From Hyphomicrobiales bacterium (GTDB lineage Bacteria > Pseudomonadota > Alphaproteobacteria > Rhizobiales > JACESI01), in contig JBDWKL010000027.1 in assembly GCA_039973685.1 (NCBI GenBank), positions 1-50,736 on the forward strand: a stretch of 50,736 nt of DNA, read 5' to 3'. The translations under genes and the position numbers were made by a program. Positions 17,960-32,407 of this stretch are shown in pieces. Each line of letters opens with the position of its first letter. Position 1 is the stretch's first letter. A model generated the notes under the pieces. The model worked only from the letters and a program-made list of their open reading frames with translations, did not search any database and was not told the DNA's origin.

Positions 17960-19567
17960 CTATGCGGCTCTCTCATTGGTTGCGCCTGTGTGACGGGCGA
18001 GGGTGGCGAGGTGGTTGAGTGCCTCTTCGCTTACATCATTTGTGATGGCAGCAATGTAACGGTCTGGCCTAATGAGATAGGCACAGTTCACGCCATACCG
18101 TTTGGCCAGAAGGTTTGTGCTATCTTTAAGGCGTTGTGCTGTGTCTAATTGCCCATCATGTATGTCATATAGATCAGCGCCGCTCTGGTTGAGCATCAGC
18201 AATTGATGATTGCCTGTCATGCAATCAATCAACTGGCAGGCCTTGCCATCTTTCGACACGGGAGAATCGACAATAACGGTGCCGATTTTGCGAGGGGCTT
18301 TTGCATCGGTTTCTTGATCAAGCGGCAGGGCGCAAGGCACTGATAGACGGCCAGAGTTGATGAGCTTGCGGGCGAAATCTTCTTTGCCAGCAAGTTTCAA
18401 AACCTCATCACGGAACATCATTTCCATCGACGACTTAGGCGTCATGAAGCGCGTGGCGCGGCTTGAGTTTTGAACGTTCTCACTCGCACCAAGAAGGCGC
18501 TCAGTATTGTAGGTCTCAATCAGGCCTTGATCCGCGCCACCCAATACAGCAGCCAGCTTCCACCCAAGATTGTCCACATCATGGATGCCGCCATTGCCAC
18601 CGCGCGCGCCGAAGGGGGAAACCACGTGAGCGCTATCACCAACGAAGATCACGCGGTTATGCACCATGCGCTTCAGCTTTGCGCATTGGAATTTATAAAC
18701 GCTCATCCAATCAAGCTTGAACGGCTTGTCTCCAAGAATAGCCTTGAGGCGAGGCATAACGGCGGCTTCGGTTTTCTCATGCTCGGTATCCGCATCTGGG
18801 CCGAGTTGAAGGTCTATGCGGTAGATATTGTCTGGTTGTTTGTGAAGCAGAGCAGACTGGCCGTTATGGAAAGGTGGCTTGAACCAAAACCAGCGCTCTG
18901 GCTCATCGGTTTCAAACGGGCTTTGTTCCATTTCAACATCAGCAATGAGGAACTGCTCCTCGAACGTTTCACCCTTGAATGAAAGTCCCATACGTTGCCG
19001 CGTGGCAGAACCTGCGCCATCACAGGCGAGCACGTATTCAGCGGCTAAGGCATAAGCCCCATCGGGCGTTTCAACAGTTAGGTGAACCAAATCGCCATCA
19101 TCTTGGTGGTCCACAACCTTGTTCTTCCAACGAAGATCAATCAGATCAGGAAACTCCGCGCAGCGCTCGGCCAGATATTGCTCGACGTAATATTGTTGCA
19201 GGTTGATGAAGGCTGGATATTTGTGACCGTCTTCTGGCAGTAGGTTGAAATTATAGACCTCATCCTCGCCATGAAACAGCCGCCCGATCTTCCACGTAAC
19301 GCCTTTATCAAGCATCCGCTCGCCAATGCCTAAGCGGTCGAAGATTTCAAGCGTGTGTTTCGCCCAACAAATAGCGCGGGAGCCAATGGAAACGACGTTG
19401 TTATCATCCAGAACGATGACCTTGATGCCGCGCTGTGCCAAATCAATCGCTGCCGCCAAACCAATCGGCCCAGCGCCGATAATAGCGACAGGCACCGTGG
19501 AGGCCTCACCACCTTCAAGCTCTGGCGGCTTCACATAATCAAACGGTTGATATTGATAGTTCGCCAT
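17960..19567 (-). CDS. FAD-dependent aromatic hydroxylase (MhpA/PheA group)
   Basis: A 535-residue class A flavoprotein monooxygenase. It shows the Rossmann motif IIGAGPIGLAAAIDLAQRG near residue 29, a CDGAGSATR segment (the DG motif) and FVGDSAHVVSPFGARGGNGGIHDV (the GD motif), with a C-terminal thioredoxin-like region typical of the MhpA type. Such enzymes insert one oxygen ortho or para to a phenolic hydroxyl using NAD(P)H. In an operon with hmgA, fah and maiA and without hppD, a plausible substrate is a hydroxyphenylacetate, giving homogentisate. GGGAGGAGC precedes the ATG at 19567. The exact substrate cannot be read from sequence. Confidence 0.87.
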   Translation of the reverse strand: MANYQYQPFDYVKPPELEGGEASTVPVAIIGAGPIGLAAAIDLAQRGIKVIVLDDNNVVSIGSRAICWAKHTLEIFDRLGIGERMLDKGVTWKIGRLFHGEDEVYNFNLLPEDGHKYPAFINLQQYYVEQYLAERCAEFPDLIDLRWKNKVVDHQDDGDLVHLTVETPDGAYALAAEYVLACDGAGSATRQRMGLSFKGETFEEQFLIADVEMEQSPFETDEPERWFWFKPPFHNGQSALLHKQPDNIYRIDLQLGPDADTEHEKTEAAVMPRLKAILGDKPFKLDWMSVYKFQCAKLKRMVHNRVIFVGDSAHVVSPFGARGGNGGIHDVDNLGWKLAAVLGGADQGLIETYNTERLLGASENVQNSSRATRFMTPKSSMEMMFRDEVLKLAGKEDFARKLINSGRLSVPCALPLDQETDAKAPRKIGTVIVDSPVSKDGKACQLIDCMTGNHQLLMLNQSGADLYDIHDGQLDTAQRLKDSTNLLAKRYGVNCAYLIRPDRYIAAITNDVSEEALNHLATLARHTGATNERAA

Positions 19568-19587
19568 TGCTCCTCCCAAAGCATTGG

Positions 19588-20538
19588 TTAGCTCTGAAGT
19601 GCGTTCCACATTTCCTTATCGCGTTCCGCCGTCCAAATGCGCGGGTGGTCTAGGCCACGTGCTTCGTCATAAGCGCGGGCCACGTTGAAAGGTAGGCAAT
19701 GTTCGTAGATTGCATAATCCTTGAACTTATCATCACACGCATCGCGGCACGCATCCCATGCGTCTTTCAAGCTGCCACCACCGCGTGCAATACGGGCGAT
19801 GGGGTCATAGGTTGAGCGGATGAAATCGTTGGTGAGGTCGATCGCTTCATTGACCATTTTCTTGCCGACAAGCGCATCACCGCGACCAGGTGCGATGGCG
19901 TCCACATCATATGAGCGGATGGCTTCCAGCGTTGTTGGCCAGTCTGCAAAGTGACCGTCGCCGCAATAGCAAGCTGATTTATATTCAACGATATCGCCGG
20001 TGAACATAACGTTTTGGTCTGGCACGAAAGCAACGATGTCGCCTGCTGTATGAGCGCGACCCACATGCATGAGGTCCACGCGGCGCTTGCCAAGATAGAT
20101 CGTCATGCTTTTTGAAAATGTCTGTGTCGGCCACGTCAGACCCGGAATGCTTTCATGGCCTTGGAAAAGACGCGGGAAGCGGTCGAATTCGCTGTCCCAA
20201 TCTTCTTGGCCACGTTCTAGCACCATAGCGCGGGCGGCATCTGACATGATGACTTCTGATGCATTGAAAGCAGATGCGCCTAGCACACGCACCGCATGAT
20301 AATGAGTGAGCACCACATGCTTGATCGGTTTGTCCGTCACACCGCGTACATGCTCAATCACCTTCTGTGCTAAGCGGGGTGTCGCTTGCGCTTCAATGAT
20401 CATCACGCTGTCATCGCCAATGATAACGCCAGAGTTCGGATCACCCTCAGCGGTGAAAGCGTAAAGCCCGTCACCAACTTGCGTAAAAGAAATCTCTTTT
20501 TCCGCCATGTCGCCTTGTGATGCGAATGCTTTAGCCAT
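19588..20538 (-). CDS. MBL-fold protein with reduced metal site
   Basis: A 316-residue metallo-beta-lactamase-fold protein. The canonical HxHxDH motif reads His79-Tyr-His81-Ala-Val-Arg84 (LTHYHAVRVLGA), so the Asp and His that would bind the second metal are missing. His163 (GRAHTAGD) and Asp182 (FTGDIVE) remain, while the late GH ligand is replaced by APGRGD. The first metal site therefore looks intact and the second lost. It overlaps the fah gene by 8 bp and lies 20 bp before the FAD hydroxylase, firmly inside the homogentisate operon. A hydrolase or lactonase role is possible; I cannot name a substrate. Confidence 0.85.
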   Translation of the reverse strand: MAKAFASQGDMAEKEISFTQVGDGLYAFTAEGDPNSGVIIGDDSVMIIEAQATPRLAQKVIEHVRGVTDKPIKHVVLTHYHAVRVLGASAFNASEVIMSDAARAMVLERGQEDWDSEFDRFPRLFQGHESIPGLTWPTQTFSKSMTIYLGKRRVDLMHVGRAHTAGDIVAFVPDQNVMFTGDIVEYKSACYCGDGHFADWPTTLEAIRSYDVDAIAPGRGDALVGKKMVNEAIDLTNDFIRSTYDPIARIARGGGSLKDAWDACRDACDDKFKDYAIYEHCLPFNVARAYDEARGLDHPRIWTAERDKEMWNALQS

Positions 20539-21544
20539 TTTGTTGTTCCACCTTTTGCTCGATAGCCCCAAAAATTGAATGGCCGTCTTTGTCTGTCATT
20601 TCAATGCGCACGGTGTCACCGAACTTCATGAACTCAGTGGTTGGTTTGCCGTCGTTGATGGTTTCAATCATGCGAATTTCTGCAATGCAGGAATAACCAA
20701 CGCCACCTTCTGAAATCGCTTTGCCTGCTCCTCCATCTAGCTTGTTGGAAACGGTGCCTGAGCCGATGATTGTTCCAGCAGATAGGGGACGCGTTTTAGC
20801 GGCGTGGGCGATTAGAGTTGGGAAATCGAATGTCATATCCACGCCCGCATCGGCTTTGCCAAACGGTTGGTCGTTATAGGTGACGAGCAATGGGAGATGC
20901 AGTTTTCCGCCATCCCATGCGTCGCCCAGTGCTTCGGGTGTCACGGTGACAGGTGAAAAGGCGGAGGATGGTTTTGATTGGAAGAAGCCGAAACCCTTGC
21001 CAAGTTCTGCTGGAATGAGGCCGCGCAGGGAGACATCGTTGACCAGCATGACGAGACGAATGGCACTTGCTGCTTCTTCACGGCTGGCACCCATTGGCAC
21101 ATCGCCAACGATGACGGCGACTTCGCCTTCCATGTCGATGCCATAGGCTTCATCAGTCATGATAATTGGATCGCGAGGGGCGATGAATGTGTCGGAACCA
21201 CCTTGATACATCAGCGGGTCTTCCCAGAAAGATGCAGGAATTTCAGCACCACGCGCTTTGCGTACTAATTCCACGTGGTTCACATAAGCGGACCCATCAG
21301 CCCACTGGTAAGCGCGAGGCAAGGGCGAGGCGGCATCGGCTTCATGAAATCGTTGAACTGGCTGCGAGCCAGACCGCATACCTTCTGCCACCCGCTCCAA
21401 ACGTGGGCCGACATGGTCCCAGTCATCAAGGGCTGCTTGTAAGGTACGGGCAATGTGGGGAACGTCGCTGCACTGGGTTAGATCGTCAGAGACGACAACA
21501 AGACGGCCATCGCGGGTTTGGTCTTTTAAGGTAGCGAGTTTCAT
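20531..21544 (-). CDS. fahA: Fumarylacetoacetate hydrolase family protein
   Basis: Probably fumarylacetoacetase, which splits fumarylacetoacetate to fumarate and acetoacetate, the last step of homogentisate degradation. The 337-residue protein has the FAH metal-site segment (GIDMEGEVAVIVGDVPMG) and the conserved SAGTIIGSGTVSNKLDGG region. It is shorter than the eukaryotic enzyme and belongs to the bacterial FAH family, which includes other hydrolases. The operon position, 12 bp after hmgA and with maiA downstream, supports the specific assignment. Confidence 0.9.
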   Translation of the reverse strand: MKLATLKDQTRDGRLVVVSDDLTQCSDVPHIARTLQAALDDWDHVGPRLERVAEGMRSGSQPVQRFHEADAASPLPRAYQWADGSAYVNHVELVRKARGAEIPASFWEDPLMYQGGSDTFIAPRDPIIMTDEAYGIDMEGEVAVIVGDVPMGASREEAASAIRLVMLVNDVSLRGLIPAELGKGFGFFQSKPSSAFSPVTVTPEALGDAWDGGKLHLPLLVTYNDQPFGKADAGVDMTFDFPTLIAHAAKTRPLSAGTIIGSGTVSNKLDGGAGKAISEGGVGYSCIAEIRMIETINDGKPTTEFMKFGDTVRIEMTDKDGHSIFGAIEQKVEQQNG

Positions 21545-21556
21545 GAATTTCCTTAC

Positions 21557-22879
21557 TTAATCTTGTTTGCCTTGTGGGGTTCCATCAAAGCGGCGTTCTA
21601 GGCCGTCCCAGCAGTCAACATAGTCGTCTTGTAACTTGCCATTTTTTGCCGCGAATTCCGTTACTTGTTGAGGGTAGCGGGTCTCAAACATAAAGGCCAT
21701 TGTGCCATCCAGCTTCACTGGTTTTAGCTCAGCCTTGGTTGCTTTGTCATAGCCAAAGGCATCTGGTCCGTGGGGCAGCATCATGTTGTGGAGGCTCATG
21801 CCGCCGGGCACGAATCCTTTTTCTTTGGCGTCATATTGGCCGTATATGAGGCCCATAAATTCGCTCATGATGTTGCGATGGTACCAAGGCGGGCGGAAGG
21901 TGTGTTCTGCCACCATCCAACGCGGTGGGAAGATCACGAAATCAACATTAGCGGTGCCCGCTTCATCAGTTGGAGCGGTAAGGACCGTATAGATTGACGG
22001 ATCGGGATGATCAAACAAGATCGCGCCTACGGGGGAGAAGGTACGAAGATCATACTTATAAGGCGCGTAATTGCCGTGCCATGCCACCACATCAAGTGGG
22101 GAATGTTCGATGAAAGTTTCATGGAACGTGCCACACCATTTCACGGTCAAGCGACACTTGGTGCCGTCTTTGTCTTCATAGGCCGCAACGGGTGTTTTGA
22201 AGTCGCGAGGGTTAGCAAGGCAATTTGCGCCGACGGGACCGCGATTTGGCAGGGTGAGCTTTGCGCCGTAGTTCTCGCAGATATAACCGCGCGCACTCTC
22301 ATCCAGCGTTGAAACCTTAAACATCATGCCGCGTGGTAGAACGGCAATTTCTGATGGCTCAAGTTCAATGATACCCATCTCAGTGAAGATTTCCAAACGC
22401 CCGACTTGCGGCACAATCAGCATCTCTCCATCTGCATTGAAGAAATACTCATCGTCCATATTTGCGTTAAACAGATAGGCGTGGGAGGCCATGCCAGTTT
22501 GGGCTGTGGTGTCACCTGCAACCGTGATTGTCTTTATGCCGTCCAAGAAATTTGTGGGCGTTGCTGGAAGGTCTAACGGGTCCCAACGATATTGACCGAG
22601 AGGCAAAGCGTGCTTCGCGTTCGCGTCTGCAGATTTCCAGTCTGATTTCTCAATTTGAGTGAAAGCTTTTGTGTGCTTCACACTTGGGCGAATACGGTAG
22701 AGCCATGAACGCTCATTGGTGCCGCTTGGTGCCGTGAAGGGTGAGCCTGATAACTGTTCAGCATAAAGACCATAAGCGCAGTTCTGCGGACTGTTTTGAC
22801 CCTGTGGTAATGCGCCTTCTAAACTTTCGGTCTCAAAATCGTTGCCGAAACCGGGCATGTAAGCTGGCTTGTTGAGCAT
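21557..22879 (-). CDS. hmgA: Homogentisate 1,2-dioxygenase
   Basis: Cleaves the ring of homogentisate with O2 to give maleylacetoacetate. The 440-residue protein begins [26 protein letters not shown], a highly conserved HmgA N-terminus, and carries the iron-site region [20 protein letters not shown] with a downstream [10 protein letters not shown]. The length is normal. The ATG at 22879 is chosen because it gives the standard N-terminus and is preceded by GGATC; the frame is open further upstream into the regulatory region. First gene of the homogentisate operon, divergent from a MarR regulator. Confidence 0.97.
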
Positions 22880-22888
22880 CTTTGATCC

Positions 22889-22947
22889 TTTGCAACAAAG
22901 CGCATTTGATGTATTAGTTGCAAACGTAACAATGATTTGTGCAACTA
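22889..22947. promoter_or_regulatory. Candidate MarR operator between hmgA and marR
   Basis: Three copies of a GTTGCAA-like half-site lie in the 85 bp divergent gap: TTTGCAAC (22889-22896), TAGTTGCAAA (22915-22924) and GCAACTA (22941-22947). The first and second are exact inverted repeats over 8 bp, and the second and third over 7 bp. They cover the likely promoters of both genes. The neighbouring MarR protein is the obvious candidate binder; this is inference. Confidence 0.5.
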
Positions 22948-22964
22948 TCAAGCAGGGTTTTCAT

Positions 22965-23420
22965 ATGTCGGAAAATAATACTGGGTCCTTCCAATTACAA
23001 GAATTCTGGCCTTATGCCCTTAACCAAGCGGCTGAGGCAACTAGTCTTGGATTTCAATCGGTCTATCGAAAAAAGTTGGCAATGACACGCACAGAATGGC
23101 GTGTTTTGGCCCATTTGGGTGAGTTTGGGCAGATGACGGCGAAAGAAATATGCCATCGGGCAAGCCTGCATAAGACAAAGGTTTCTCGGGCTGTCGTTGC
23201 ATTGGAGAATAAGCGCTGGCTTAACCGTTCTACCCATGAGCAAGACAGGCGCGCTGAGTATTTGATTCTAACTTCTGCAGGTGAGCAAGCCTATCACGAC
23301 CTCACAAAAGACGGGGATGCGCTTAATGCTGAACTCGTCGCAGGGCTTAATGCCGATGAGCTTGCGACTTTCAGAAAAGTCTTAGATACCCTGTCGCGCA
23401 ATGCGAAGGACTTTGTTTAG
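22965..23420 (+). CDS. MarR family regulator (HmgR-like)
   Basis: A 151-residue MarR-type winged helix repressor. The core LGFQSVYRKKLAMTRTEWRVLAHLGEFGQMTAKEICHRASLHKTKVSRAVVALENKRWL is the DNA-binding domain, followed by the wing DRRAEYLILT. It is transcribed divergently from hmgA with shared inverted repeats between them, so it probably controls the homogentisate operon, with a pathway intermediate as ligand. The ATG at 22965 is preferred; the frame is open upstream across the intergenic region but lacks support there. It ends with a 4 bp convergent overlap on the next gene. Confidence 0.88.
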   Translation: MSENNTGSFQLQEFWPYALNQAAEATSLGFQSVYRKKLAMTRTEWRVLAHLGEFGQMTAKEICHRASLHKTKVSRAVVALENKRWLNRSTHEQDRRAEYLILTSAGEQAYHDLTKDGDALNAELVAGLNADELATFRKVLDTLSRNAKDFV

Positions 23421-23737
23421 TCTTCAAACACATAGTGCAACAGCTGCACCTCATTAAAGAACATTGCATAAAAGTCTGGAAGCATATCGCGGGCTTTATA
23501 TCGAGCCTCAGTCTCCATCGCCTGATCGAGTGAGGCTTGGTCTTCGTAGGTGACGATGAGAGCCAGCGGAATGGTTGGGCCGTTTTTATCGTCTTCAACA
23601 TTGAACAGAATTTTGACGTCTTCGCTTGGCTGAAACCCGCGCCACAAGGGAGCGAGTTCTGCTTCCACATAGGCACGCATCGCGGCCTCTTGTCCTGCCT
23701 TAATGGTTCCTTGAAAGAATGCGCATTTGGTGATCAT
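23417..23737 (-). CDS. Small protein, probable dimeric alpha/beta-barrel fold, function unknown
   Basis: A 106-residue protein (MITKCAFFQGTIKAGQEAAMRAYVEAELAPLW start). The pattern of a beta strand, a long helix, then strands with LALIVTYEDQASLDQAMET resembles small dimeric ferredoxin-like proteins such as the EthD or antibiotic-monooxygenase-like families, but I do not recognise the family with certainty. It starts 2 bp after the ThDP-enzyme stop, with GGTGG upstream of its ATG, and is the last gene of the seven-gene operon. It may bind or isomerise a pathway intermediate. It overlaps the convergent marR by 4 bp. Confidence 0.72.
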   Translation of the reverse strand: MITKCAFFQGTIKAGQEAAMRAYVEAELAPLWRGFQPSEDVKILFNVEDDKNGPTIPLALIVTYEDQASLDQAMETEARYKARDMLPDFYAMFFNEVQLLHYVFED

Positions 23738-23739
23738 GG

Positions 23740-25428
23740 CTAGCCACCACGATGTTTGAAGCTATCACGGCGGAAACTATAGAGCGCGTTCGGGTCAACG
23801 GCGATGTCGACAACGGCTGGCTTGCCACAGGCGAGAGCGGCTTCCACCGCGCCTGCTACATCGCCAAGATTGTCTGCACGAAAACCTCTTGCTCCGTATA
23901 GCTCTGCTAGTTCATCAAAACGCGGGCTTGAAATATCAGCACCGATATAACGGCCATTGAAGAAATCGCGCTGATAGGCTTTTTCTGCACCCCAACATTG
24001 GTTGTTCATGACTAGTGTGACCGTGTTGATGTTGTGATCAACGGCGGTGGAAAGCTCGGAGACCGTCATCCCGAAACCGCCATCTCCCATAAGGCTGACG
24101 ACGGGTCGGTCTGGACGGGCGCATTTGATGCCGAGGCCAGCCGCGAAGGAGAAGCCAACAAGGCCAAAATCAAGCGGCGTGAACAGGCTTTTGGGTGTCC
24201 AGTAATTCAGCGCGTCAGTTGCTTGCAGGCATAGGGTGCCAGCATCCATGGTGATAGCTGCCTCTTGCGGTATCACGCCACGCAGGGTTTTGAAGAGGCC
24301 AGAGGGCTGCGTCGGGTCGGTTAAGATCGCATCCGCATCACGTTTGGCGAGATAGGCTTGGCGCTCTTCTTGAAATGTTGTGGTCCACTGATCAGCCAGC
24401 GCGCGGTTTTCGATTTTTTCAATTGCCGCCGTCATTTGTTTTGCGGCCATTGGGGCATCTGACCAAATGCCAAGCTCAACAGGGAAAAAGCGGCCAATCG
24501 CTGTCGGTTCTAATTCTACATGGATGATCTTCGCATCGCGGTTGATGTTGTCATAGGTATAGAATGTCGAGTTAAACCCGAGGCGTGTCCCAAGCGCCAA
24601 AATAACGTCAGCCTCCTTTGCAAGCCGAGAAGCAACGGGATTGCCGCGTGGGCCCATTTGCCCCGCGTTTAGGGGATGACCGAAGGGTATCGCATCACCA
24701 TGACCGGGTGAAGTGACAATTGGCGCGTTGAGCTTTTCGGCAAGAGCAAGCGCTGCCGCGTGACCATTTGTGTTCTTGATGCCACCACCTGCAATAATCA
24801 CGGGTTGAGTGGCGCCAGCCAACATCCGCGCAGCTTGTTCGATTAGATCTGGATCACCAGCGGGGAGCGATTGGTTGCGATAATTCTTTGGCGCTTGTAG
24901 ATCATCGAATTCTGCTTGGGCAGAGAGCACATCGCGCGGCAAGTTTAATTGAACTGGCCCACGACGCGGGGTGAGGGCTGTTCTGAAGGCTTCCCGCATT
25001 AGTTCAGGCACACGACCTGCTGATGGTGCTGTCCATGTTTTCTTGGTGACAGGCGTGAACAATGATTGCTGATCGACTTCTTGAAACGCATCGCGGTAGA
25101 TGTGTTCAGAAGATAAAGCGCCTGAGATAGAGACCACGGGCGAGAAGGCCGCTTTTGCTTGACTGAGACCTGTTACCAAGTTCGTGGTGCCGGGGCCGTT
25201 TTGTCCGGCAAGGATAACGCCAGCTTTGCCAGAGGCACGGGCAAATCCGTCCGCCATATGGGTGCCTGTGCGTTCATCATGCACGCCGATGAAGTTGATG
25301 TCTTTTGCATCATAAAGGGCATCGAACATTTCCATTGTGGCTGAACCGATAAGGCCGAATACGTGGGAGGTTTCTTCGGCCTTTAGCGCTTCAACGGCTG
25401 CTTGCCCGCCTGAAAGTGTCTTTGTCAT
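23740..25428 (-). CDS. ThDP-dependent enzyme, Xsc/acetolactate synthase-like
   Basis: A 562-residue thiamine diphosphate enzyme with the three-domain acetolactate synthase layout. Glu52 (HDERTG) is the likely cofactor-activating glutamate, and the ThDP/Mg motif runs from GDG at 448-450 to NNQ at 475-477. The N-terminal FGLIGSATMEMFDAL, the QNGPGTTNLVTGL segment, FQEVDQQSLF and the WGAEK motif (479-483) resemble sulfoacetaldehyde acetyltransferase more than acetolactate synthase or benzoylformate decarboxylase. The operon has no phosphotransacetylase or sulfite exporter, so sulfoacetaldehyde as substrate is not established. It may act on a 2-oxo acid or an aldehyde made by neighbouring enzymes. 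GGAGG precedes the ATG, which overlaps the hydrolase stop. Confidence 0.88.
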   Translation of the reverse strand: MTKTLSGGQAAVEALKAEETSHVFGLIGSATMEMFDALYDAKDINFIGVHDERTGTHMADGFARASGKAGVILAGQNGPGTTNLVTGLSQAKAAFSPVVSISGALSSEHIYRDAFQEVDQQSLFTPVTKKTWTAPSAGRVPELMREAFRTALTPRRGPVQLNLPRDVLSAQAEFDDLQAPKNYRNQSLPAGDPDLIEQAARMLAGATQPVIIAGGGIKNTNGHAAALALAEKLNAPIVTSPGHGDAIPFGHPLNAGQMGPRGNPVASRLAKEADVILALGTRLGFNSTFYTYDNINRDAKIIHVELEPTAIGRFFPVELGIWSDAPMAAKQMTAAIEKIENRALADQWTTTFQEERQAYLAKRDADAILTDPTQPSGLFKTLRGVIPQEAAITMDAGTLCLQATDALNYWTPKSLFTPLDFGLVGFSFAAGLGIKCARPDRPVVSLMGDGGFGMTVSELSTAVDHNINTVTLVMNNQCWGAEKAYQRDFFNGRYIGADISSPRFDELAELYGARGFRADNLGDVAGAVEAALACGKPAVVDIAVDPNALYSFRRDSFKHRGG

Positions 25429-26231
25429 TGGGCCTCCGCCTTTTTTAAATCTAAGAATGTTAGGACGGGTTCGATGAAGAGGTCAGGTCTTTCCATCATC
25501 CCTAAATGCTGCAGATGATCGACGATGATCGTCTCGCTACCCGCAATTTCGCCTGCAATATCATGGCTCATTTTAGGTGTGCTGCCGGTGTCGTTTTCAC
25601 AGGTCATCACTAGGGTTGGCTTGGTGATTGGTGGCTCTGGGTTGATGAGTTCCCGCACACCATTGGCCAAAACCCACGCAGCCTGTGCATAGCTTTCAGG
25701 ATCCACGAGATCACGCCACGCTCGAACTTTTGTGACACCATCACCCGTTTCTAAATAGTCAGGTGTGAACCAACGGCTCAAAGCAGCATCAAGCGTTGCC
25801 GTTGGGCCTTCTTCGCGGACTTTGGCCGCACGTTCTTCAACGGCCAATTGTGCTTCTTCGCCGCGATCATGGGGAGAATTCAGGATGACGAGGTTTTCAA
25901 GTCGATTGTTATGGTCAAAAGCGAAGCGGCGATTGATCATGCCGCCAATTGAAAAACCGATGAGGCTTGCGGTTTGAATATCCAAATGATCGAGCAAGTG
26001 CGCGATTTGATCTGAATATACTTTCAGCGATGCGGTCTTAGGCGGTGGTGTGCTTTCGCCGTGGCCGTATAGATCATAGAGAATAAGCTGGTAATCTTTG
26101 GACCACGCCTCAGTGAAATCATCAAAGATATGATGACAAAGACCAAGGCCGTGGATCAACACCAGTGGCGGATGGTCAGCATTGCCGACCACCTCATGTG
26201 CTGTGCCATCTGGTGCATGCTTTGTTGCCAT
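25425..26231 (-). CDS. Alpha/beta hydrolase (3-oxoadipate enol-lactonase-like)
   Basis: A 268-residue alpha/beta hydrolase with oxyanion-hole HGLG (27-30), nucleophile Ser94 in GFSIGG, acid Asp214 (CENDTG) and base His242 (LQHLGMMERP). The overall form resembles PcaD enol-lactonase and RutD aminoacrylate hydrolase. It lies between DUF1185 and the ThDP enzyme, overlapping the latter by 4 bp. In the context of a luciferase-like monooxygenase it probably hydrolyses a ring-opened or lactone/amide intermediate. The substrate is unknown. Confidence 0.87.
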   Translation of the reverse strand: MATKHAPDGTAHEVVGNADHPPLVLIHGLGLCHHIFDDFTEAWSKDYQLILYDLYGHGESTPPPKTASLKVYSDQIAHLLDHLDIQTASLIGFSIGGMINRRFAFDHNNRLENLVILNSPHDRGEEAQLAVEERAAKVREEGPTATLDAALSRWFTPDYLETGDGVTKVRAWRDLVDPESYAQAAWVLANGVRELINPEPPITKPTLVMTCENDTGSTPKMSHDIAGEIAGSETIIVDHLQHLGMMERPDLFIEPVLTFLDLKKAEAQ

Positions 26232-26236
26232 GATGC

Positions 26237-26833
26237 TTACACACCTGCTGGATTGTCGACGTCATGCCCCATTTCTTTGAGGTCTTCGTAGCGATTGCCG
26301 ATGCGGTGATGTGGGTGGCCACCAACGGAGGCGCCAAGGGCGATGACCATCTCATCTTCTGCTGGTGCATCTGGAATGCTGAGGTGGATGGTTTGATAAT
26401 GCGAACGACGCCCGCCATCATCTTTATCCATCAATGGGATTACCAATGATGTGCCAGCGCCGCCACGTGTGTTGGCGAAGACGAGATAAGATTTCGCGTC
26501 CACAGCTTCGCGGTATTGATTGCCGAAATAAAGCGTGTGGGTGAGGGCTTGTGCGTGTTCTAGCGAGCCGCCCATGCCAACAAGAGATGCTTTGCCGTAG
26601 CCTTCCAATTTGTCGCCTGTCACATCAAGGATCATGTCGGTCAGCAATTTACCAATTACTGGCCCTGTTTCGCGCGTTGCTGGGCGAAGGTCTTCAACAT
26701 AGCCTTGCCCGGCCCAAGGGTTCTTGATGATTGCCATTGCGGCAACAAGCTTTGTTGGCTGCGCAACAGCGCGGTCTTCTTCGTGCAGGGTGGTTTGGAT
26801 ATTTAAGAGGGTGCGGCGAATTTCTACGGCCAT
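26237..26833 (-). CDS. DUF1185 (amino acid synthesis family) protein
   Basis: A 198-residue protein of the DUF1185 family (PF06684), recognisable by IIKNPWAGQGYVEDLRP, the LVGMGGSLEHAQALTH segment and the C-terminal ALGASVGGHPHHRIGNR. Structures of this family were described as a variant of the Bacillus chorismate mutase-like fold, the same general fold as RidA/YjgF deaminases; activity is not established. It lies 21 bp after the luciferase-like monooxygenase gene and 5 bp before the hydrolase. By position it could play the part RutC plays in the Rut pathway. That is inference. Confidence 0.85.
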   Translation of the reverse strand: MAVEIRRTLLNIQTTLHEEDRAVAQPTKLVAAMAIIKNPWAGQGYVEDLRPATRETGPVIGKLLTDMILDVTGDKLEGYGKASLVGMGGSLEHAQALTHTLYFGNQYREAVDAKSYLVFANTRGGAGTSLVIPLMDKDDGGRRSHYQTIHLSIPDAPAEDEMVIALGASVGGHPHHRIGNRYEDLKEMGHDVDNPAGV

Positions 26834-26854
26834 GAATTGTCTCCATAAGGGTAT

Positions 26855-27889
26855 TTAAGCAAAGGCGGGCATGACTTCATCAATGAAGAGTTTGAGCGAG
26901 CGTTTTTGTACGTCGCGATCTAGGCCCATTGAGGCGTAATAGATGAATGCATCGACACCAATTTTTTCGTGTTGTTTGATTTTCTCAATCACCGTATCGG
27001 GTGAGCCGAACATCAAGTTTTCTTCGAGCATCTTAGGGTCAACACGCACATTGCCATCAAGCTCTTCCAGCGGCACTTGATCAGGGAAGCCATTGTGAAC
27101 GTCACCTTTTTTCATCATCAAATTGCCGAATTGACCAAGAACGTGACGCACGGACGAAATCGACTTTTCGCGGTCTGCTTCATTGGCGTAAAGGGCGGTG
27201 TGGCGCATCAATGCAAATGTGCGGTTCCATGTGCCACCAGCCTTTGCGATGGATTCGTCCAACTGCGTGCGATATTTTTCAGATTCTGAAAACGGCATGG
27301 TGAGAGGCCAGCACATAATATTGCAATCATTAGCAACCGCATAATCAAACGTGATTGGTGAGCGAGCCGCAACCCAAATAGGCACTTCATCTTGCAACGG
27401 CTTCGGGCAAGAGGTTGATTTTGGAAATTCCCAATAGTCGCCTTTGTGCTCCACATCGCCTTTCCAAAGCTTACGAATAAGGGGCAGCATTTCTTGCATA
27501 TAGCGCCATGAGTCAGGCTGTTGCAGGCCCGGTTTCATGCGGTCAAATTCGCGTTGATAGGCGCCAGAACCAAGACCCATTTCAAGACGGCCACCTGATA
27601 AAAGGTCAACCATTGCTGCTTCACCAGCGATATTGATTGGGTGCCAATAAGCAGCATTGGCCACACCGCAACCAAGGCGGATATTGTTGGTATGATCTCC
27701 CCACCATGTCATCAATTGAAACGGGTTTGGTGCGATGGTCATTTCAACGGCATGATGTTCTGCCGCCCAAGCAATTTCGAAACCGGCAGCATCTGCCATT
27801 TGCACCATTTCAAGCGTATGGTCGCGGACCTCACGCATGTCAGTTTCAGCGTTCATTCGTTCCAGATTGATGGCAATTTGAAATTTCAT
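26855..27889 (-). CDS. LLM class flavin-dependent monooxygenase
   Basis: A 344-residue bacterial-luciferase-like (TIM barrel) enzyme that uses reduced FMN and O2. AEHHAVEMTIAPNPF (about 42-57), the LGCGVANAAYWHP segment and SGGRLEMGLGSGAYQREFDRM are typical of the family. Enzymes of this kind need a separate flavin reductase, and one is encoded two genes upstream in the same operon. GGGGGAG lies 9 bp before the ATG. Possible reactions are oxidative C-S, C-N or ring cleavage; sequence alone does not choose. It is most likely the signature enzyme of this pathway. Confidence 0.9.
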   Translation of the reverse strand: MKFQIAINLERMNAETDMREVRDHTLEMVQMADAAGFEIAWAAEHHAVEMTIAPNPFQLMTWWGDHTNNIRLGCGVANAAYWHPINIAGEAAMVDLLSGGRLEMGLGSGAYQREFDRMKPGLQQPDSWRYMQEMLPLIRKLWKGDVEHKGDYWEFPKSTSCPKPLQDEVPIWVAARSPITFDYAVANDCNIMCWPLTMPFSESEKYRTQLDESIAKAGGTWNRTFALMRHTALYANEADREKSISSVRHVLGQFGNLMMKKGDVHNGFPDQVPLEELDGNVRVDPKMLEENLMFGSPDTVIEKIKQHEKIGVDAFIYYASMGLDRDVQKRSLKLFIDEVMPAFA

Positions 27890-27925
27890 GACTTAGGCTC
27901 CCCCCGAGCATATGGTCGTTTATTG

Positions 27926-29401
27926 TCAGCGCATTTTAAATGGGTTGGCGATTGGATCGTCTGACAGGTTCATCCAAACGGTTTTTGGTCTTGTGTAATC
28001 GTAAAGCGCCTGCAGACCTGCTTCGCGGCCATATCCGCTGTGTTTCATGCCGCCAAATTCTGCGATTGGCGAAATCACGCGGTATGTGTTGACCCAGATG
28101 ATGCCAGCTTTGACTTTCTTAGACATACGAAGCGAGCGTGCGCTGTCACGAGTGAAGATGCCAGCGGCGAGGCCGTGCTTTGTATCGTTCGCGAGGGCTA
28201 CCACTTCGTCTTCCGTTTTGAAGCGCTGCACAGCGAGGACAGGGCCAAACAGTTCTGTGTCTACAATCGTCATGTCTTGGCGTGGGCATTCGATGATGGT
28301 CGGCTCATAAAACATGCCCGCAAGGTCGGGCTGCTTGCCGCCTGTCAGCACTGTGCCGCCTTCTTTTTCAGCAAGTGCAACTTGCTCTTGAATATGGTCA
28401 AGCTGTCCCTGTGTGCAAAGCGGCCCCATTTCGGTTTCATCAGCCTGCGGGTCGCCGATTTTAATGGTTTTAGCAATGGCGATCATCTTTTCCAAAAATG
28501 CATCCGCAATGTCTTCATGGAGATATAGCCGTGAACCTGCGACACAGCTTTGGCCCGTTGCGCCGAAAATACCAGCGACAGAACCATTTACAGCGCTATC
28601 AAGGTCCGCATCATCAAACACGATGAAGGGCGATTTTCCGCCGAGTTCTAAGGAAACTTCAGCAAAGTTTTCCGCTGAATTTCGAATGATGTGCTTGGCG
28701 GATTGTGGTCCGCCAGTAAAGGCAACGCGGGCAACATCTGGGTGTGAGGTGAGGGTGCGGCCACAGGGTTCGCCGTGGCCTGTGATAATGTTGATTACAC
28801 CTTTTGGAATGCCTGCTTGTTCAACCAATTTGCCAAAGGCTAACAGCGGCGCAGATGCCTGCTCTGACGCTTTCAATACAATGGTGTTTCCTGCAGCTAA
28901 GGCGGGGCCAATTTTGGTGGCACTTAAGAACATTTGGCTATTCCACGGCACAACCGCCGCGATCACGCCAAGGGGTTCACGGGCAGTGAAAACGAACATG
29001 TCTGGCTTGTCGATTGGTAAGGTTTCACCGTGAATTTTATCCGCAGCACCACCATAAAAATGCAGGTACTCCGCGATATAAGTGGCTTGCCACGCGGTTT
29101 CCTTGAACATCTTGCCCGTGTCTTGGGTTTCAATGCGGCCAAGTTCTTCTGAATTTGCAGCCAGCAGATCACCAAGCCGATGTAAGCACTTGCCGCGTGC
29201 CGTTGGTGTCATGGCTCCCCATTCACCTTCTAACGCATACTTGGCGGCGGCAACTGCGCGCTCGACATCGGCCTCAGTGGCTTCTGGCACGGTTGCCCAT
29301 ACAGCACCAGTGGCTGGATTGGTGCTTTCAAAGGTCTTGCCGTTTGATGCTTGCACCCAGTCTCCGTCGATTAACATGTCAAAAGATTGGATGTCGTTCA
29401 T
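27926..29401 (-). CDS. Aldehyde dehydrogenase (NAD(P)+), first copy
   Basis: A 491-residue aldehyde dehydrogenase with the general base Glu252 (LELGGKSP) and nucleophile Cys286 (GQSCVAGSR). The PWNSQMFL segment and the terminal KHSGYGREAGLQALYDYTRPKTVW are usual for the family. The ATG at 29401 is 1 bp after the flavin reductase stop, with GAGG upstream, so the two are cotranslated; the open frame runs further upstream into the reductase gene. It probably oxidises the aldehyde made by the luciferase-like monooxygenase or the ThDP enzyme in the same operon. Confidence 0.92.
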   Translation of the reverse strand: MNDIQSFDMLIDGDWVQASNGKTFESTNPATGAVWATVPEATEADVERAVAAAKYALEGEWGAMTPTARGKCLHRLGDLLAANSEELGRIETQDTGKMFKETAWQATYIAEYLHFYGGAADKIHGETLPIDKPDMFVFTAREPLGVIAAVVPWNSQMFLSATKIGPALAAGNTIVLKASEQASAPLLAFGKLVEQAGIPKGVINIITGHGEPCGRTLTSHPDVARVAFTGGPQSAKHIIRNSAENFAEVSLELGGKSPFIVFDDADLDSAVNGSVAGIFGATGQSCVAGSRLYLHEDIADAFLEKMIAIAKTIKIGDPQADETEMGPLCTQGQLDHIQEQVALAEKEGGTVLTGGKQPDLAGMFYEPTIIECPRQDMTIVDTELFGPVLAVQRFKTEDEVVALANDTKHGLAAGIFTRDSARSLRMSKKVKAGIIWVNTYRVISPIAEFGGMKHSGYGREAGLQALYDYTRPKTVWMNLSDDPIANPFKMR

Positions 29402-29402
29402 C

Positions 29403-29888
29403 TTAGGCCTCTTCTGTTTTCTTTTGGAGTGTTTGATAGTCTCCGTCGCAATAAGTAAGCGGAGGCTTTCCAACGATTGTTGAAGCATCAACCAAGCCGA
29501 TTGCTATTACATGGCTACCGGATGGGACGAGTTGTTCTAATTGGCAGCGAAAGACCGTTGAACCGACAATTTCAGGCACCACAGCGTCAGTGGTGTTGAT
29601 GCCATCAAATCTGTCTTCGACATTGTCGTCGTCCATGCCTGCAAAGCGCTTGGCAATGGCTGCACTACCTTCAGGCAACACATTGACGGTGAAAACGCCG
29701 TTTGCTTTTACCAATTCGCCAATGCGTGACGTGGCATTCAAGCATACCAGCACAGTCGGAGGATCAGCTGAAACGGAACAAAACGCGGAAACAGTTGCGC
29801 CATGCCGACCGCTAGCACCATCGGTGGTGACGACTGTTACACTATGTGCGACAGCACGCATGGCTTGGATGAATTCTTCGCGTTTCAC
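29403..29888 (-). CDS. Flavin reductase family protein (HpaC/RutF-like)
   Basis: A 161-residue NAD(P)H:flavin oxidoreductase of the flavin-reductase-like family. HSVTVVTTDGASGRHGATVSAFCSVSADPPTVLVCLN is the hallmark, followed by FTVNVLPE and a late GSHVIAIGLV segment. It should supply FMNH2 to the luciferase-like monooxygenase encoded downstream. I prefer the GTG start at 29888, preceded by AAGGAA at good spacing; an ATG at 29915 would add nine residues. It is the first gene of the seven-gene operon, divergent from the LysR regulator. Confidence 0.9.
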   Translation of the reverse strand: MKREEFIQAMRAVAHSVTVVTTDGASGRHGATVSAFCSVSADPPTVLVCLNATSRIGELVKANGVFTVNVLPEGSAAIAKRFAGMDDDNVEDRFDGINTTDAVVPEIVGSTVFRCQLEQLVPSGSHVIAIGLVDASTIVGKPPLTYCDGDYQTLQKKTEEA

Positions 29889-29960
29889 TTGTGTTCCTTT
29901 CAACAGGCTCAACATGTCCCGTTATGTTGCAAAGTATTTGAATTTCATGATATTGAAAAA

Positions 29961-29996
29961 CGAATTATTTCGATAGTTTAATGCAAAAAATTCGAA
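29961..29996. promoter_or_regulatory. Candidate LysR binding region
   Basis: The 117 bp gap between the flavin reductase operon and the divergent LysR gene is very AT-rich and contains the dyad CGAA-TTAT-TTCG (29961-29972) and a TTCGAA palindrome (29991-29996) just before the LysR start. LysR-type regulators usually bind such a divergent region and activate the neighbouring operon. The precise site is a guess. Confidence 0.4.
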
Positions 29997-30005
29997 TTGA
30001 TCATC

Positions 30006-30857
30006 ATGCAACTCAACGAACTACGTACCTTTTTGGCAATTATAGAAACAGGTAGCTTGATCAAGGCATCTGAGCAACTCAATGTCACGCAATCAACCGT
30101 TACTGCAAGGTTGAAATCTTTGGAAGCTGAGATTGGGCAAAGCTTGATCAATCGGCAAAAATCTGGCGTCTCATTAACGGCGGCAGGTGTGCGGTTTCAA
30201 CGCTATGCCAGCACCATCACGAACCTATGGCGGCAAGCAAGACAAGAAACTTCTTTGCCTGATGCGCTCAGTTCGGTTTGCAACATTGGGTGCCATCCAG
30301 ATTTGTGGCCGGCATTGGGGCAGGAGGTTTTTAATTACATTCGCAAAGAGGTGCCTCAGGTGGCGCTTTCGATTTGGCAAGGTAGTTCTAGAGATATGCG
30401 GGGCTGGTTGGATGACGGTTTGGTTGATTTTGCCATCACGCATTCACCCAGTGTGGCGCAAGAACAAGAGATTGTTCGCAGCATAGATGACCAATTGATT
30501 TTGGTTTCAACCGAAAGAGACAGCCCCATCACATTTGATCCGAAATACTTCTTCGTTGAGGCGGGTGAGGCTTTTGGTCGCGAACATGCTGCAACCTTTG
30601 CCGATGCAAATACATCGCGTATCAGTTTTGGCTCGGCCACATTGGGGCTTGAATATTTGTTATCTGAAGGCGGCAGTGCATATCTTCCCTTACGATTGGC
30701 GCGCCCTTACATCGACAAAGGGGAGATCCATATTTTAGAAGCAGCACCCACCTTCGAACGCGGCGCCTATTTAATTGTTAACAAGACAGCAGCTAAAGCG
30801 TGGCCATGGCTTGAAAACTGTCTCATCAATTCCATAAATTTGGCGATGGACAAATAG
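30006..30857 (+). CDS. LysR family transcriptional regulator
   Basis: A 283-residue LysR-type regulator. The N-terminal helix-turn-helix (MQLNELRTFLAIIETGSLIKASEQLNVTQSTVTARLKSLE) is followed by a periplasmic-binding-protein-like effector domain. It is divergent from the flavin reductase/monooxygenase operon, the standard arrangement for a pathway activator, and is followed on its own strand by a second aldehyde dehydrogenase, so both transcription units may be in its regulon. The ATG at 30006 is preferred to an in-frame TTG at 29997. Confidence 0.9.
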   Translation: MQLNELRTFLAIIETGSLIKASEQLNVTQSTVTARLKSLEAEIGQSLINRQKSGVSLTAAGVRFQRYASTITNLWRQARQETSLPDALSSVCNIGCHPDLWPALGQEVFNYIRKEVPQVALSIWQGSSRDMRGWLDDGLVDFAITHSPSVAQEQEIVRSIDDQLILVSTERDSPITFDPKYFFVEAGEAFGREHAATFADANTSRISFGSATLGLEYLLSEGGSAYLPLRLARPYIDKGEIHILEAAPTFERGAYLIVNKTAAKAWPWLENCLINSINLAMDK

Positions 30858-30947: not shown

Positions 30948-30970
30948 TTGATTATTTCAAGGAGATGGCT

Positions 30971-32407
30971 ATGCAAGATGCCCGCAAATTTTATATAAAT
31001 GGCCAATGGGTTGCTCCATTGTCTGGAACGGATATGGACGTAATTGATCCTTCTAACGAAGAGGCGTTTGCGACTATTTCTCTAGGTGGTGAAGCTGACA
31101 CCAATGCGGCAGTTGCGGCGGCTAATGCTGCGTTTGCCAAATGGCGTCTGACTTCAAAGGCAGAACGGCTTGAGCTTCTTGAAAACATTTTGGCGATTTA
31201 TCTCAAGCGTTCCGATGAAATGGGCGCTGTTATCTCCCGCGAAATGGGTGCGCCGATTGTTATGTCAAAGCAGATGCAATCTGGCACTGGCAGCTTTCAC
31301 ATTCAGGCATTTATTGAGGCCTTGAAGGGGTTTGAGTTTGAGCGCGAGCTGAGACCAAACACGCCAAACGACAAGATTATTTATGAGCCAATCGGGGTTT
31401 GTGGTTTGATCACACCTTGGAACTGGCCAATGAACCAGATTTGCTTGAAGGTTATTCCGGCTCTTGCAACTGGTTGCACGATGATTTTGAAACCATCTGA
31501 GCAATCACCATTGTCTGCAATGCTCTTCACAGAAATTTTGGATGAAGCGGGTGTTCCAGCTGGCGTTTACAACCTCGTCAACGGCGATGGCCCAGGTGTT
31601 GGTTCACAGCTTTCAAACCACCCTGATGTTGAAATGATCAGCTTCACGGGTTCAACTCGTGCTGGTAAAGCAATCAGCATTGCTGGTGCTGAGACAATCA
31701 AGCGCATCAGCTTGGAGCTTGGTGGCAAGGGTGCGAATTTGATCTTTGCTGATGCGAGCGACAAAGCCGTGCAGCAAGGTATTGCTCGTTGTTTCAACAA
31801 CACTGGCCAATCGTGCAACGCGCCAACACGTATGCTTGTTGAGCGTTCGCGCTATGATCAAGCGGTTGAAGAAGCGACTGCGGCGGCTGAAGCGACTGCG
31901 GTTAATCTATCCTCAGAAGAAGGCCGTCACATTGGCCCACTTGTTTCTGAGATGCAGTTTAACAAGGTTCAAGACCTTATTCAGATCGGCATTGATGAAG
32001 GCGCTAAATTGGTTGCTGGTGGTGTTGGTCGTCCGAATGGTTTGAACCGTGGTTTCTTCGTTAAACCAACCGTCTTTGCTGATTGTAACAATGACATGCG
32101 CATCATGCGTGAAGAAGTCTTTGGTCCGGTTATCTCTTTGATGGCGTTTGACAGCGAAGAGGAAGCCATTGCCATTGCAAATGACACGGATTATGGCCTC
32201 ACCAATTACATTCAGACCTCTGATCAAGAAAAAGCACACCGCGTTGCTCGCGAACTTCGCAGCGGCATGGTGGACATCAACGGTGTTGGCAGAAGCGCTG
32301 GTTCACCGTTCGGTGGCATGAAGCAATCTGGTAATGGCCGTGAAGGTGGCGAATGGGGACTAGAAGAGTTCCTCGAAGTTCGTGCCATCGGTGGTTGGGA
32401 TACATAA
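30971..32407 (+). CDS. Aldehyde dehydrogenase (NAD+), second copy
   Basis: A 478-residue aldehyde dehydrogenase with Glu249 (LELGGKGA) and Cys282 (NTGQSCNAPTR). It differs clearly from the copy at 27926-29401 and belongs to a broad-substrate group. Two in-frame ATGs lie close together; AAGGAG directly abuts the first (30965), so the second (30971), 6 bp away, is the likelier start. It follows the LysR gene after a 113 bp gap with two hairpins and ends with its own terminator at 32441-32469. By eye it favours CGT and GGT codons more than its neighbours, hinting at high expression. Confidence 0.92.
   Translation: MQDARKFYINGQWVAPLSGTDMDVIDPSNEEAFATISLGGEADTNAAVAAANAAFAKWRLTSKAERLELLENILAIYLKRSDEMGAVISREMGAPIVMSKQMQSGTGSFHIQAFIEALKGFEFERELRPNTPNDKIIYEPIGVCGLITPWNWPMNQICLKVIPALATGCTMILKPSEQSPLSAMLFTEILDEAGVPAGVYNLVNGDGPGVGSQLSNHPDVEMISFTGSTRAGKAISIAGAETIKRISLELGGKGANLIFADASDKAVQQGIARCFNNTGQSCNAPTRMLVERSRYDQAVEEATAAAEATAVNLSSEEGRHIGPLVSEMQFNKVQDLIQIGIDEGAKLVAGGVGRPNGLNRGFFVKPTVFADCNNDMRIMREEVFGPVISLMAFDSEEEAIAIANDTDYGLTNYIQTSDQEKAHRVARELRSGMVDINGVGRSAGSPFGGMKQSGNGREGGEWGLEEFLEVRAIGGWDT

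Follow-up and report, generated by a model that had tools for sequence, protein, structure and literature searches.

The closest described system to the genes considered here is the tgn operon of Acinetobacter baylyi ADP1 (TgnA-F), in which TgnC is an aldehyde dehydrogenase and TgnD is a hydrolase. According to the accessible parts of PMC8269262, the trigonelline ring is opened by TgnA/TgnB, and those of PMC7913881 describe TgnF as homologous to the DUF1185-family protein HcdD and as stimulating TgnE-dependent succinic semialdehyde oxidation. Homarine is an N-methylpyridinium carboxylate, and a passage of PMC13390433 reports its catabolism as linked to the N-methylglutamate pathway (Mgd). Here, a related locus is described in the window, i.e., the whole analysed stretch of 50,736 nucleotides from a Hyphomicrobiales bacterium (contig JBDWKL010000027.1, assembly GCA_039973685.1). 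At 23417-29888, seven tightly packed minus-strand genes encode, in this order, a flavin reductase (FlRed), an aldehyde dehydrogenase (ALDH1), a luciferase-like flavin monooxygenase (LLM), a DUF1185 protein, an alpha/beta hydrolase (ABH), a thiamine diphosphate (ThDP)-dependent enzyme and a 106-residue protein (u106). The cassette is a real, conserved catabolic unit. By analogy, and with the balance about even, it may be a catabolic operon of the trigonelline type whose back end is new, acting on an N-methylated heteroaromatic betaine. The genes and associated features are as follows:

23417-23737, minus strand: u106, predicted EthD-type alpha+beta barrel of 106 amino acids (structure model; no Pfam family)
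23740-25428, minus strand: putative ThDP-dependent lyase/decarboxylase, related to Xsc and distinct from it (TPP_enzyme N/M/C; HDERTG region; WGAEK motif)
25425-26231, minus strand: ABH, alpha/beta hydrolase in the TgnD position, PcaD-like (Abhydrolase_1; 154.7 bits on the PcaD model, whose cut-off of 255.85 is not reached)
26237-26833, minus strand: DUF1185/AA_synth protein of the TgnF family (PF06684, 196 bits)
26855-27889, minus strand: LLM, luciferase-like flavin monooxygenase of a TgnB-related subfamily (PF00296)
27926-29401, minus strand: ALDH1, aldehyde dehydrogenase in the TgnC position (PF00171)
29403-29888, minus strand: FlRed, short, single-domain flavin reductase component in the TgnA position (PF01613)
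29953-29998, minus strand: putative LysR operator, AATTC-N24-AATAATTC-NN-TTTTCAA, common to related intergenic regions
30006-30857, plus strand: divergent LysR-type regulator (HTH_1 and LysR_substrate)
30965-32407, plus strand: ALDH2, second aldehyde dehydrogenase, uncertain member of the cassette (PF00171)

Composition and recurrence of the cassette

From FlRed to u106, the genes follow one another at distances of 1, 36, 21, 5, -4 and 2 bp. The initial annotation named these genes correctly: Pfam agrees for six of the seven (Flavin_Reduct, 112.6 bits; Aldedh, 547.8; Bac_luciferase, 172.9; AA_synth/DUF1185, 196.1; Abhydrolase_1, 78.3; TPP_enzyme N/M/C, 105-119 bits), while u106 stands without a family. 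Among the matches listed, all seven stay below the NCBIfam cut-offs. The start codon of FlRed is GTG, preceded by AAAGGAA; for ALDH1 and the LysR gene, ATG codons at 29401 and 30006 were chosen as starts, with the mechanical open reading frames beginning upstream at 29491 and at 29997, respectively.

Recurrence was assessed in a class sample of 385 evenly drawn genomes (384 without the window genome), an order-level sample of 297 genomes, a scan of named genomes, and 26 loci that were picked by hand for their anatomy, are thus not a random set, and do not all have an LLM above 60% identity (percentages are identities to the window protein unless stated otherwise; L and G numbers denote loci and genomes). 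With the window genome left out, the LLM occurs at E<=1e-140 in 8 of the 384 class genomes, the ThDP enzyme at an identity of at least 69% in six, and both together in four (Fisher p 1.2e-6); counted by family, the Fisher value is 1.8e-4 under the assumption of 168 families in all. Outside the limits set, both proteins have weaker counterparts in G330 (LLM 55%, ThDP enzyme 48%), and G573 and G650 have the ThDP enzyme with no LLM at E<=1e-40. The co-occurrence search proposed in the initial annotation therefore finds the set again in other genomes, not as a chance assembly in a few: the ThDP gene lies in the same cassette in 14 of the 26 selected loci, and in two more (L084 and L087) the contig ends inside it. 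A chance neighbourhood is ruled out by the conserved order, the operator-like element described below and the co-occurrence.

At the order level, 36 of 297 genomes have LLM matches at E<=1e-60 (47 matches in total). In two (L034 and L038) of 40 neighbourhoods, sampled from 46 non-window matches, some of them on short contigs, the ThDP gene lies close to that of the LLM, and the genes for ALDH, LLM, FlRed, ABH and DUF1185 are frequently together among the more distant of these neighbourhoods. The named-genome scan gave 44 LLM loci, in nine of which (L084-L089, L091, L092 and L122) the ThDP gene adjoins the cassette; the taxa are Rhizobiaceae, Litoreibacter, Paracoccaceae, another alphaproteobacterium, Granulosicoccaceae and Acidimicrobiales. 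Of the 12 named loci whose LLM is at least 75% identical, nine have the ThDP gene, and L083, L090 and L093 are without it. The gene order recurs across Alphaproteobacteria, without FlRed in Granulosicoccaceae, and partly in an Acidimicrobiales metagenome-assembled genome (L092); because most records are such assemblies or uncultured isolates, single cases such as L092 may be binning errors.

Within the 14 ThDP cassettes, DUF1185 is part of the operon in nine and u106 is found in exactly the same nine, the window included. Both are missing from L034, L038, L137 and L138, and the DUF1185 gene of L092 (only 30%) lies on the opposite strand behind the ThDP gene. Where ABH and the ThDP gene are both present (13 loci), they overlap by 4 bp in 11. 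The place after the ThDP gene, taken by u106 in the window, is occupied in L137 and L165 by a CMD-family gene. Extra ThDP copies (77-78%) were found in G079, G113, G114 and G038, and three of the four corresponding loci that were read (L163, L165 and L166; L164 is too short) have them beside ABH, ALDH1 or LLM-like genes. With respect to neighbours, a choline-sulfatase-like gene is near the cassette in L038, L137 and L166 (PF00884 with PF12411 in L137), an MFS transporter family member accompanies it in L038 and L166, and in L035 a Bmp-type ABC transporter follows DUF1185.

The view that a divergent LysR gene and a second aldehyde dehydrogenase complete the locus holds only in its first half. 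Both genes are on the plus strand, and a divergent LysR gene precedes the cassette in 20 of the 26 selected loci; ALDH2, however, has a close full-length counterpart near the cassette in L092 only (65%), and in seven other ThDP genomes that were searched its matches (51-79%) are on other contigs or far off. ALDH2 is thus no constant part of the cassette. On the other side of the operon, a convergent MarR gene, whose end overlaps that of u106 by 4 bp, is followed by a homogentisate operon; together they span 17960-23420 and encode, besides MarR, hmgA, fumarylacetoacetase, a metallo-beta-lactamase-fold protein and an FAD hydroxylase. Past ALDH2 lie genes for Dus, an aspartyl protease, DUF1289 and cobalamin functions. 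None of these flanking genes gives a clue to the substrate.

Putative regulatory element and possible methylamine link

The gaps between LysR and the operon share a two-part element, AATTC-N24-AATAATTC-NN-TTTTCAA. In 18 of 20 related intergenic regions, the window included, the best match beats at least 197 of 200 dinucleotide shuffles; the exceptions are L086, in which 8 of 200 shuffles are as good, and L135 (27 of 200). This test is partly circular because the consensus had been drawn up by visual inspection of the very sequences tested. The window genome contains one perfect site and four sites with three mismatches, and a reversed-pattern control has no match in it. Three of the four mismatch sites are inside long open frames, and the fourth (L174:1501-1546, C15:39439-39484 of the window genome) is intergenic, approximately 470 bp from the next open frame; given the empty control, it might be a second target of the regulator. 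The description of the locus as self-contained and regulated is in accordance with a conserved, locally regulated catabolic cassette.

The genomes that carry the cassette also tend to encode a type III glutamine synthetase (TIGR03105, type III glutamate-ammonia ligase, a family that presumably includes GmaS). This protein is above its cut-off in 69 of the 385 class genomes, including all seven genomes with a ThDP enzyme of at least 69% (six of six without the window genome) and seven of the eight with an LLM at E<=1e-140 when the window genome is left out. With the latter excluded, the Fisher values are 2.6e-5 for the ThDP enzyme and 2.9e-5 for the LLM, related genomes being counted separately. 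The sole LLM genome without TIGR03105 over the cut-off, G487, is 64% complete. Conversely, three genomes of the same genus without TIGR03105 over the cut-off are also without the LLM (E<=1e-60) and the ThDP enzyme (E<=1e-120). In the window genome, the glutamine synthetase gene follows GATase, GXGXG and Glu_synthase genes (MgsA/B/C-like), a run expected from its domain content to be an mgsABC-gmaS-like operon. The mgsABC-gmaS pathway is described in the accessible part of PMC13390433. The co-occurrence hints that methylamine may be released by the pathway.

Proposed pathway and its alternatives

We infer the substrate and all chemical steps from the direct results, i.e., gene identity, conserved order, the shared operator-like element and the co-occurrence with the methylamine-type glutamine synthetase. 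In the favoured reading, LysR would sense the substrate or an intermediate and switch the operon on. FlRed would provide reduced flavin to the LLM, which would oxygenate an N-methylated heteroaromatic betaine (a pyridinium carboxylate or a close relative) at the position next to its ring nitrogen, so that the ring opens and an N-formyl enamine aldehyde is formed. This aldehyde would be oxidised by ALDH1. ABH, perhaps assisted by DUF1185 and u106 through isomerisation, lactone handling or stimulation, would hydrolyse the resulting enamide, setting free methylamine and formate together with a short oxo acid or aldehyde; finally, the ThDP enzyme would cleave the hydrolysis product. With a carboxylate beside the ring nitrogen, as in homarine, hydrolysis could give a 2-oxo acid that a ThDP enzyme might cleave, and trigonelline would presumably yield succinic semialdehyde without involving such an enzyme. 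The initial annotation had suggested ring or amide opening with subsequent release of an aldehyde or 2-oxo acid; the best analogy is ring opening, then oxidation and hydrolysis.

The tgn-type loci, defined here by an LLM with 33-39% identity to that of the window, have DUF1185, ABH, FlRed, LLM and ALDH together in 14 of 19 cases, namely 10 order genomes, Leisingera L078, Klebsiella L080 and Acinetobacter L077 and L082. Thus, the claim that no known pathway uses the full set is not supported: five of the seven functions already occur together, and only the ThDP enzyme and u106 are outside this set. In both Acinetobacter records, which are unannotated and were read by tblastn, the order is DUF1185-ABH-FlRed-LLM-ALDH; in Sinorhizobium L079, DUF1185 and ABH are matched in fragments. 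The identity to tgn-type proteins is 54-64% for DUF1185 and 52-57% for ALDH1 (ALDHs of 16 loci). The DUF1185 protein matches PF06684 over positions 1-175, well above the curated cut-off of 27 bits, is 58% identical to the copy of L077 and has solved relatives in 2qtp and 3byq, whereas its identity to the copies of the loci with an LLM of about 62% (62%-type) is 50-58%. FlRed aligns with the 307-residue tgn-type reductase at 32.5% over 163 residues. The window LLM is collinear with the Acinetobacter tgn-type LLM (36% over 345 residues) and is 46% identical to the LLM of Agrobacterium C58. The trees of LLM and ALDH1 contain window-type, 62%-type, C58-type and tgn-type groups; as these trees are unrooted, statements on branching rest on branch lengths only. 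A mosaic origin, with DUF1185 but not the LLM taken from the tgn-type lineage, was considered in view of the unequal identities to the tgn-type proteins and withdrawn, since the approximately unbiased test rejects nothing (p 0.34-0.53, with the weak, opposite-strand L092 copy and the tandem copy L142 omitted) and no conflict between the DUF1185 tree and the other trees can be demonstrated. The latter copy is part of a tandem DUF1185 pair (34-35% to the window copy) on contig C43 of the window genome (L142:9808-10967). The pair is flanked on one side by a branched-chain-type ABC transporter and on the other by two adjacent genes (309 and 496 amino acids; L142:10960-13384) with no Pfam match at E<=1e-5 and by genes for a molybdenum hydroxylase and an aldehyde ferredoxin oxidoreductase. 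Tandem pairs are also present in other order genomes, e.g., G047, G087, G095, G126 and G187.

Given an identical core set, the operon might encode a divergent version of the trigonelline pathway itself, in which the ThDP enzyme would replace or supplement the final reaction, and no second LLM at E<=1e-60 was found in the window genome. However, LLM subfamilies coexist within single genomes (62% and 37% in G135, 48% and 37% in G149, and 46% and 39% in G129), which makes it unlikely that they serve one common substrate, and the known route through succinic semialdehyde oxidation (TgnE), as presented in the accessible text of PMC7913881, needs no ThDP enzyme. On these grounds, we consider trigonelline itself to be an improbable substrate. 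The counterpart of TgnE is uncertain: ALDH2 scores 380 bits on the SSADH model (cut-off 646) and is not conserved with the cassette.

The back end sets the cassette apart. The best NCBIfam matches of the ThDP enzyme are Xsc models, and the initial annotation pointed to C2 sulfonate chemistry, with this enzyme acting as a sulfoacetaldehyde acetyltransferase. Xsc is indeed the nearest named ThDP family, and the WGAEK motif is also found in the window genome's own Xsc. However, the enzyme reaches only 404 bits on TIGR03457 (cut-off 676.4), the genome encodes a separate true Xsc elsewhere (953 bits), and neither a sulfonate transporter nor a sulfite exporter is present among the scanned window genes; hence, this explanation appears very improbable. 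The enzyme retains a glutamate that we take to be the ThDP-activating residue, and its best solved relative is BbmA. Its relatives at 69-70% (L139 and L140) come after an alpha/beta hydrolase of another family, in genomes with no LLM at E<=1e-40; in L139, a TRAP transporter lies behind the ThDP gene, and in L170 an amidase precedes it. As a hydrolase ahead of the ThDP gene is a recurring theme, the ThDP substrate is probably the product of the hydrolase. More distant relatives (44-47%) occur with MttB and Oxidored_FMN genes (L168-L170) or beside Oxidored_FMN (L141), and in Ruegeria pomeroyi (L076) the operon of such a relative also encodes an MttB-family protein, a class III aminotransferase and two FAD oxidoreductases. 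This gene company suggests a second, demethylation-based pathway that may end in the same kind of ThDP enzyme. The last gene, u106, has no Pfam match at E<=0.001 or even at E<=1; its AlphaFold2 model (pLDDT 93) is most similar in Foldseek to 2ftr of the EthD family (TM 0.72). A NIPSNAP identity was rejected, as profile comparison with two NIPSNAP proteins gave a probability of 0.9%; a NIPSNAP structure does appear among the fold matches, at rank 28.

The combination of an LLM, a flavin reductase and a hydrolase also recalls the Rut uracil pathway, a resemblance noted in the initial annotation that proved weak. FlRed matches the RutF model at 94.3 bits, far from the cut-off of 254.75; E. coli RutA aligns with the window LLM at 27% over only 155 of 382 residues; the LLM is probably of a different branch; and no RutB- or RutC-type gene is among the seven. 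A pyrimidine-type pathway can hardly be credited. The structure model of the LLM is nearest to RslO1/LuxA-type luciferases (Z 36-37), followed by a type II Baeyer-Villiger monooxygenase (Z 32) and RutA (Z 28), although a shared fold of this kind does not indicate function. It had also been foreseen that the monooxygenase might closely match an enzyme of known substrate; none so close was found, the best solved structure scoring 85.7 bits.

Several observations weigh against the favoured reading. First, the tgn comparison was made with the Acinetobacter records L077 and L082, distinct from A. baylyi ADP1 (whose TgnB is Q6F9F6), and the accessible part of PMC8269262 judges TgnA/TgnB unlikely to act on homarine for steric reasons. 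Second, the LLM forms a separate clade and is only 36% identical to the tgn-type enzymes, so its substrate may differ in kind. Third, only 5 of the 14 ThDP cassettes have an identified FlRed gene (one locus lacking it, L122, begins inside the LLM gene), so flavin reduction may be served from elsewhere; similarly, the L136 cassette is without an LLM, which the same genome has elsewhere beside an ALDH1-like gene. Fourth, lineage or marine habitat may explain part of the glutamine synthetase link; gmaS is reported in approximately 23% of surface-ocean genomes in the accessible text of PMC7948447. Finally, the nearest LLM relatives outside the window type have ALDHs at 62-74% and include acyl-CoA, BKACE and GlxA-type clusters, which point to an aliphatic betaine of the carnitine kind. 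Since the ALDHs of the 62%-type loci (62-74%) resemble ALDH1 more than those of tgn-type loci do (52-57%), the heteroaromatic interpretation is weakened and an aliphatic one strengthened.

In this main rival, the LLM would oxidatively cleave or hydroxylate carnitine or a gamma-butyrobetaine-type quaternary amine, ALDH1 would oxidise the (amino)aldehyde, and the ThDP enzyme would remove a C2 or C1 unit. All of the examined loci with an LLM of 62-67% (L073, L074 and L171) combine it with ALDH1-like genes (67-72%), 3HCDH, BKACE and GlxA-type genes and a CoA transferase or CoA ligase, along with enoyl-CoA hydratase, which is annotated in L073 and L074. A glycine betaine/proline transporter is found close to the C58 relative, with CMD and NIPSNAP genes; distant ThDP relatives keep company with MttB and/or Oxidored_FMN genes; and a choline-sulfatase-like gene is close to the L137 cassette, with members of its family in L038 and L166. 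The best NCBIfam score of ALDH1 is for BADH (497 bits), although the cut-off of 668.6 is not reached. However, the same core without CoA genes constitutes the tgn-type set, DUF1185 is at least as near to the tgn-type as to the 62%-type copies, and the window cassette contains neither a CoA nor a demethylase gene. An aliphatic betaine is therefore rather unlikely, and an N-methylated heteroaromatic betaine remains the substrate that we favour.

Significance and comparison with known systems

According to the accessible text of PMC8269262, marine particles and phytoplankton contain homarine and trigonelline, although the homarine amounts given there were later corrected downwards. The bacterial genes for using such betaines are only starting to be described, and the cassette provides a defined, testable gene set with an LLM beside a ThDP enzyme as its marker, as well as a starting point for studying two groups of proteins that are still poorly understood, namely DUF1185 and the Xsc-related ThDP enzymes. 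More tentatively, it might represent an undescribed, widely exchanged pathway for an abundant algal N-methyl heteroaromatic betaine, in which a new ThDP lyase family would take over directly from the hydrolase after luciferase-type ring opening, and DUF1185 and the EthD-like barrel would form a linked pair of new proteins with a catalytic or helper role. No description of an operon that combines genes for an LLM, DUF1185 and a ThDP enzyme was found among the literature matches listed, which cover few subscription papers, and the accessible parts of PMC12817926, PMC9723723 and PMC9038784 contain no homarine degradation genes. The novelty of the pathway depends on comparison with the homarine genes published in 2026 (Ferrer-Gonzalez et al., Nat Microbiol), as that pathway might be the same system.

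Among known systems, homarine catabolism would share the proposed substrate class of N-methylpyridinium carboxylates and, according to one citing sentence, is linked to the N-methylglutamate pathway. The carnitine/BKACE-type clusters (Parasedimentitalea, Aminobacter and L171) are closer in LLM and ALDH1, and the two plasmid loci also have DUF1185 and a hydrolase, as in the window; however, their back end is of the CoA-thioester type, whereas that of the window consists of the ThDP enzyme and u106. These clusters (L073, L074 and L171) could themselves be an undescribed entry into carnitine-like degradation. The tgn operon of A. baylyi ADP1 resembles the window in its two-component LLM and flavin reductase and its DUF1185 protein, and perhaps in an ALDH and a hydrolase (56% and 30% to the L077 genes), which we tentatively assign to the TgnC and TgnD positions. 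Unlike the tgn operon, the window cassette has a short flavin reductase, a distant LLM, another gene order and extra ThDP and EthD-like genes.

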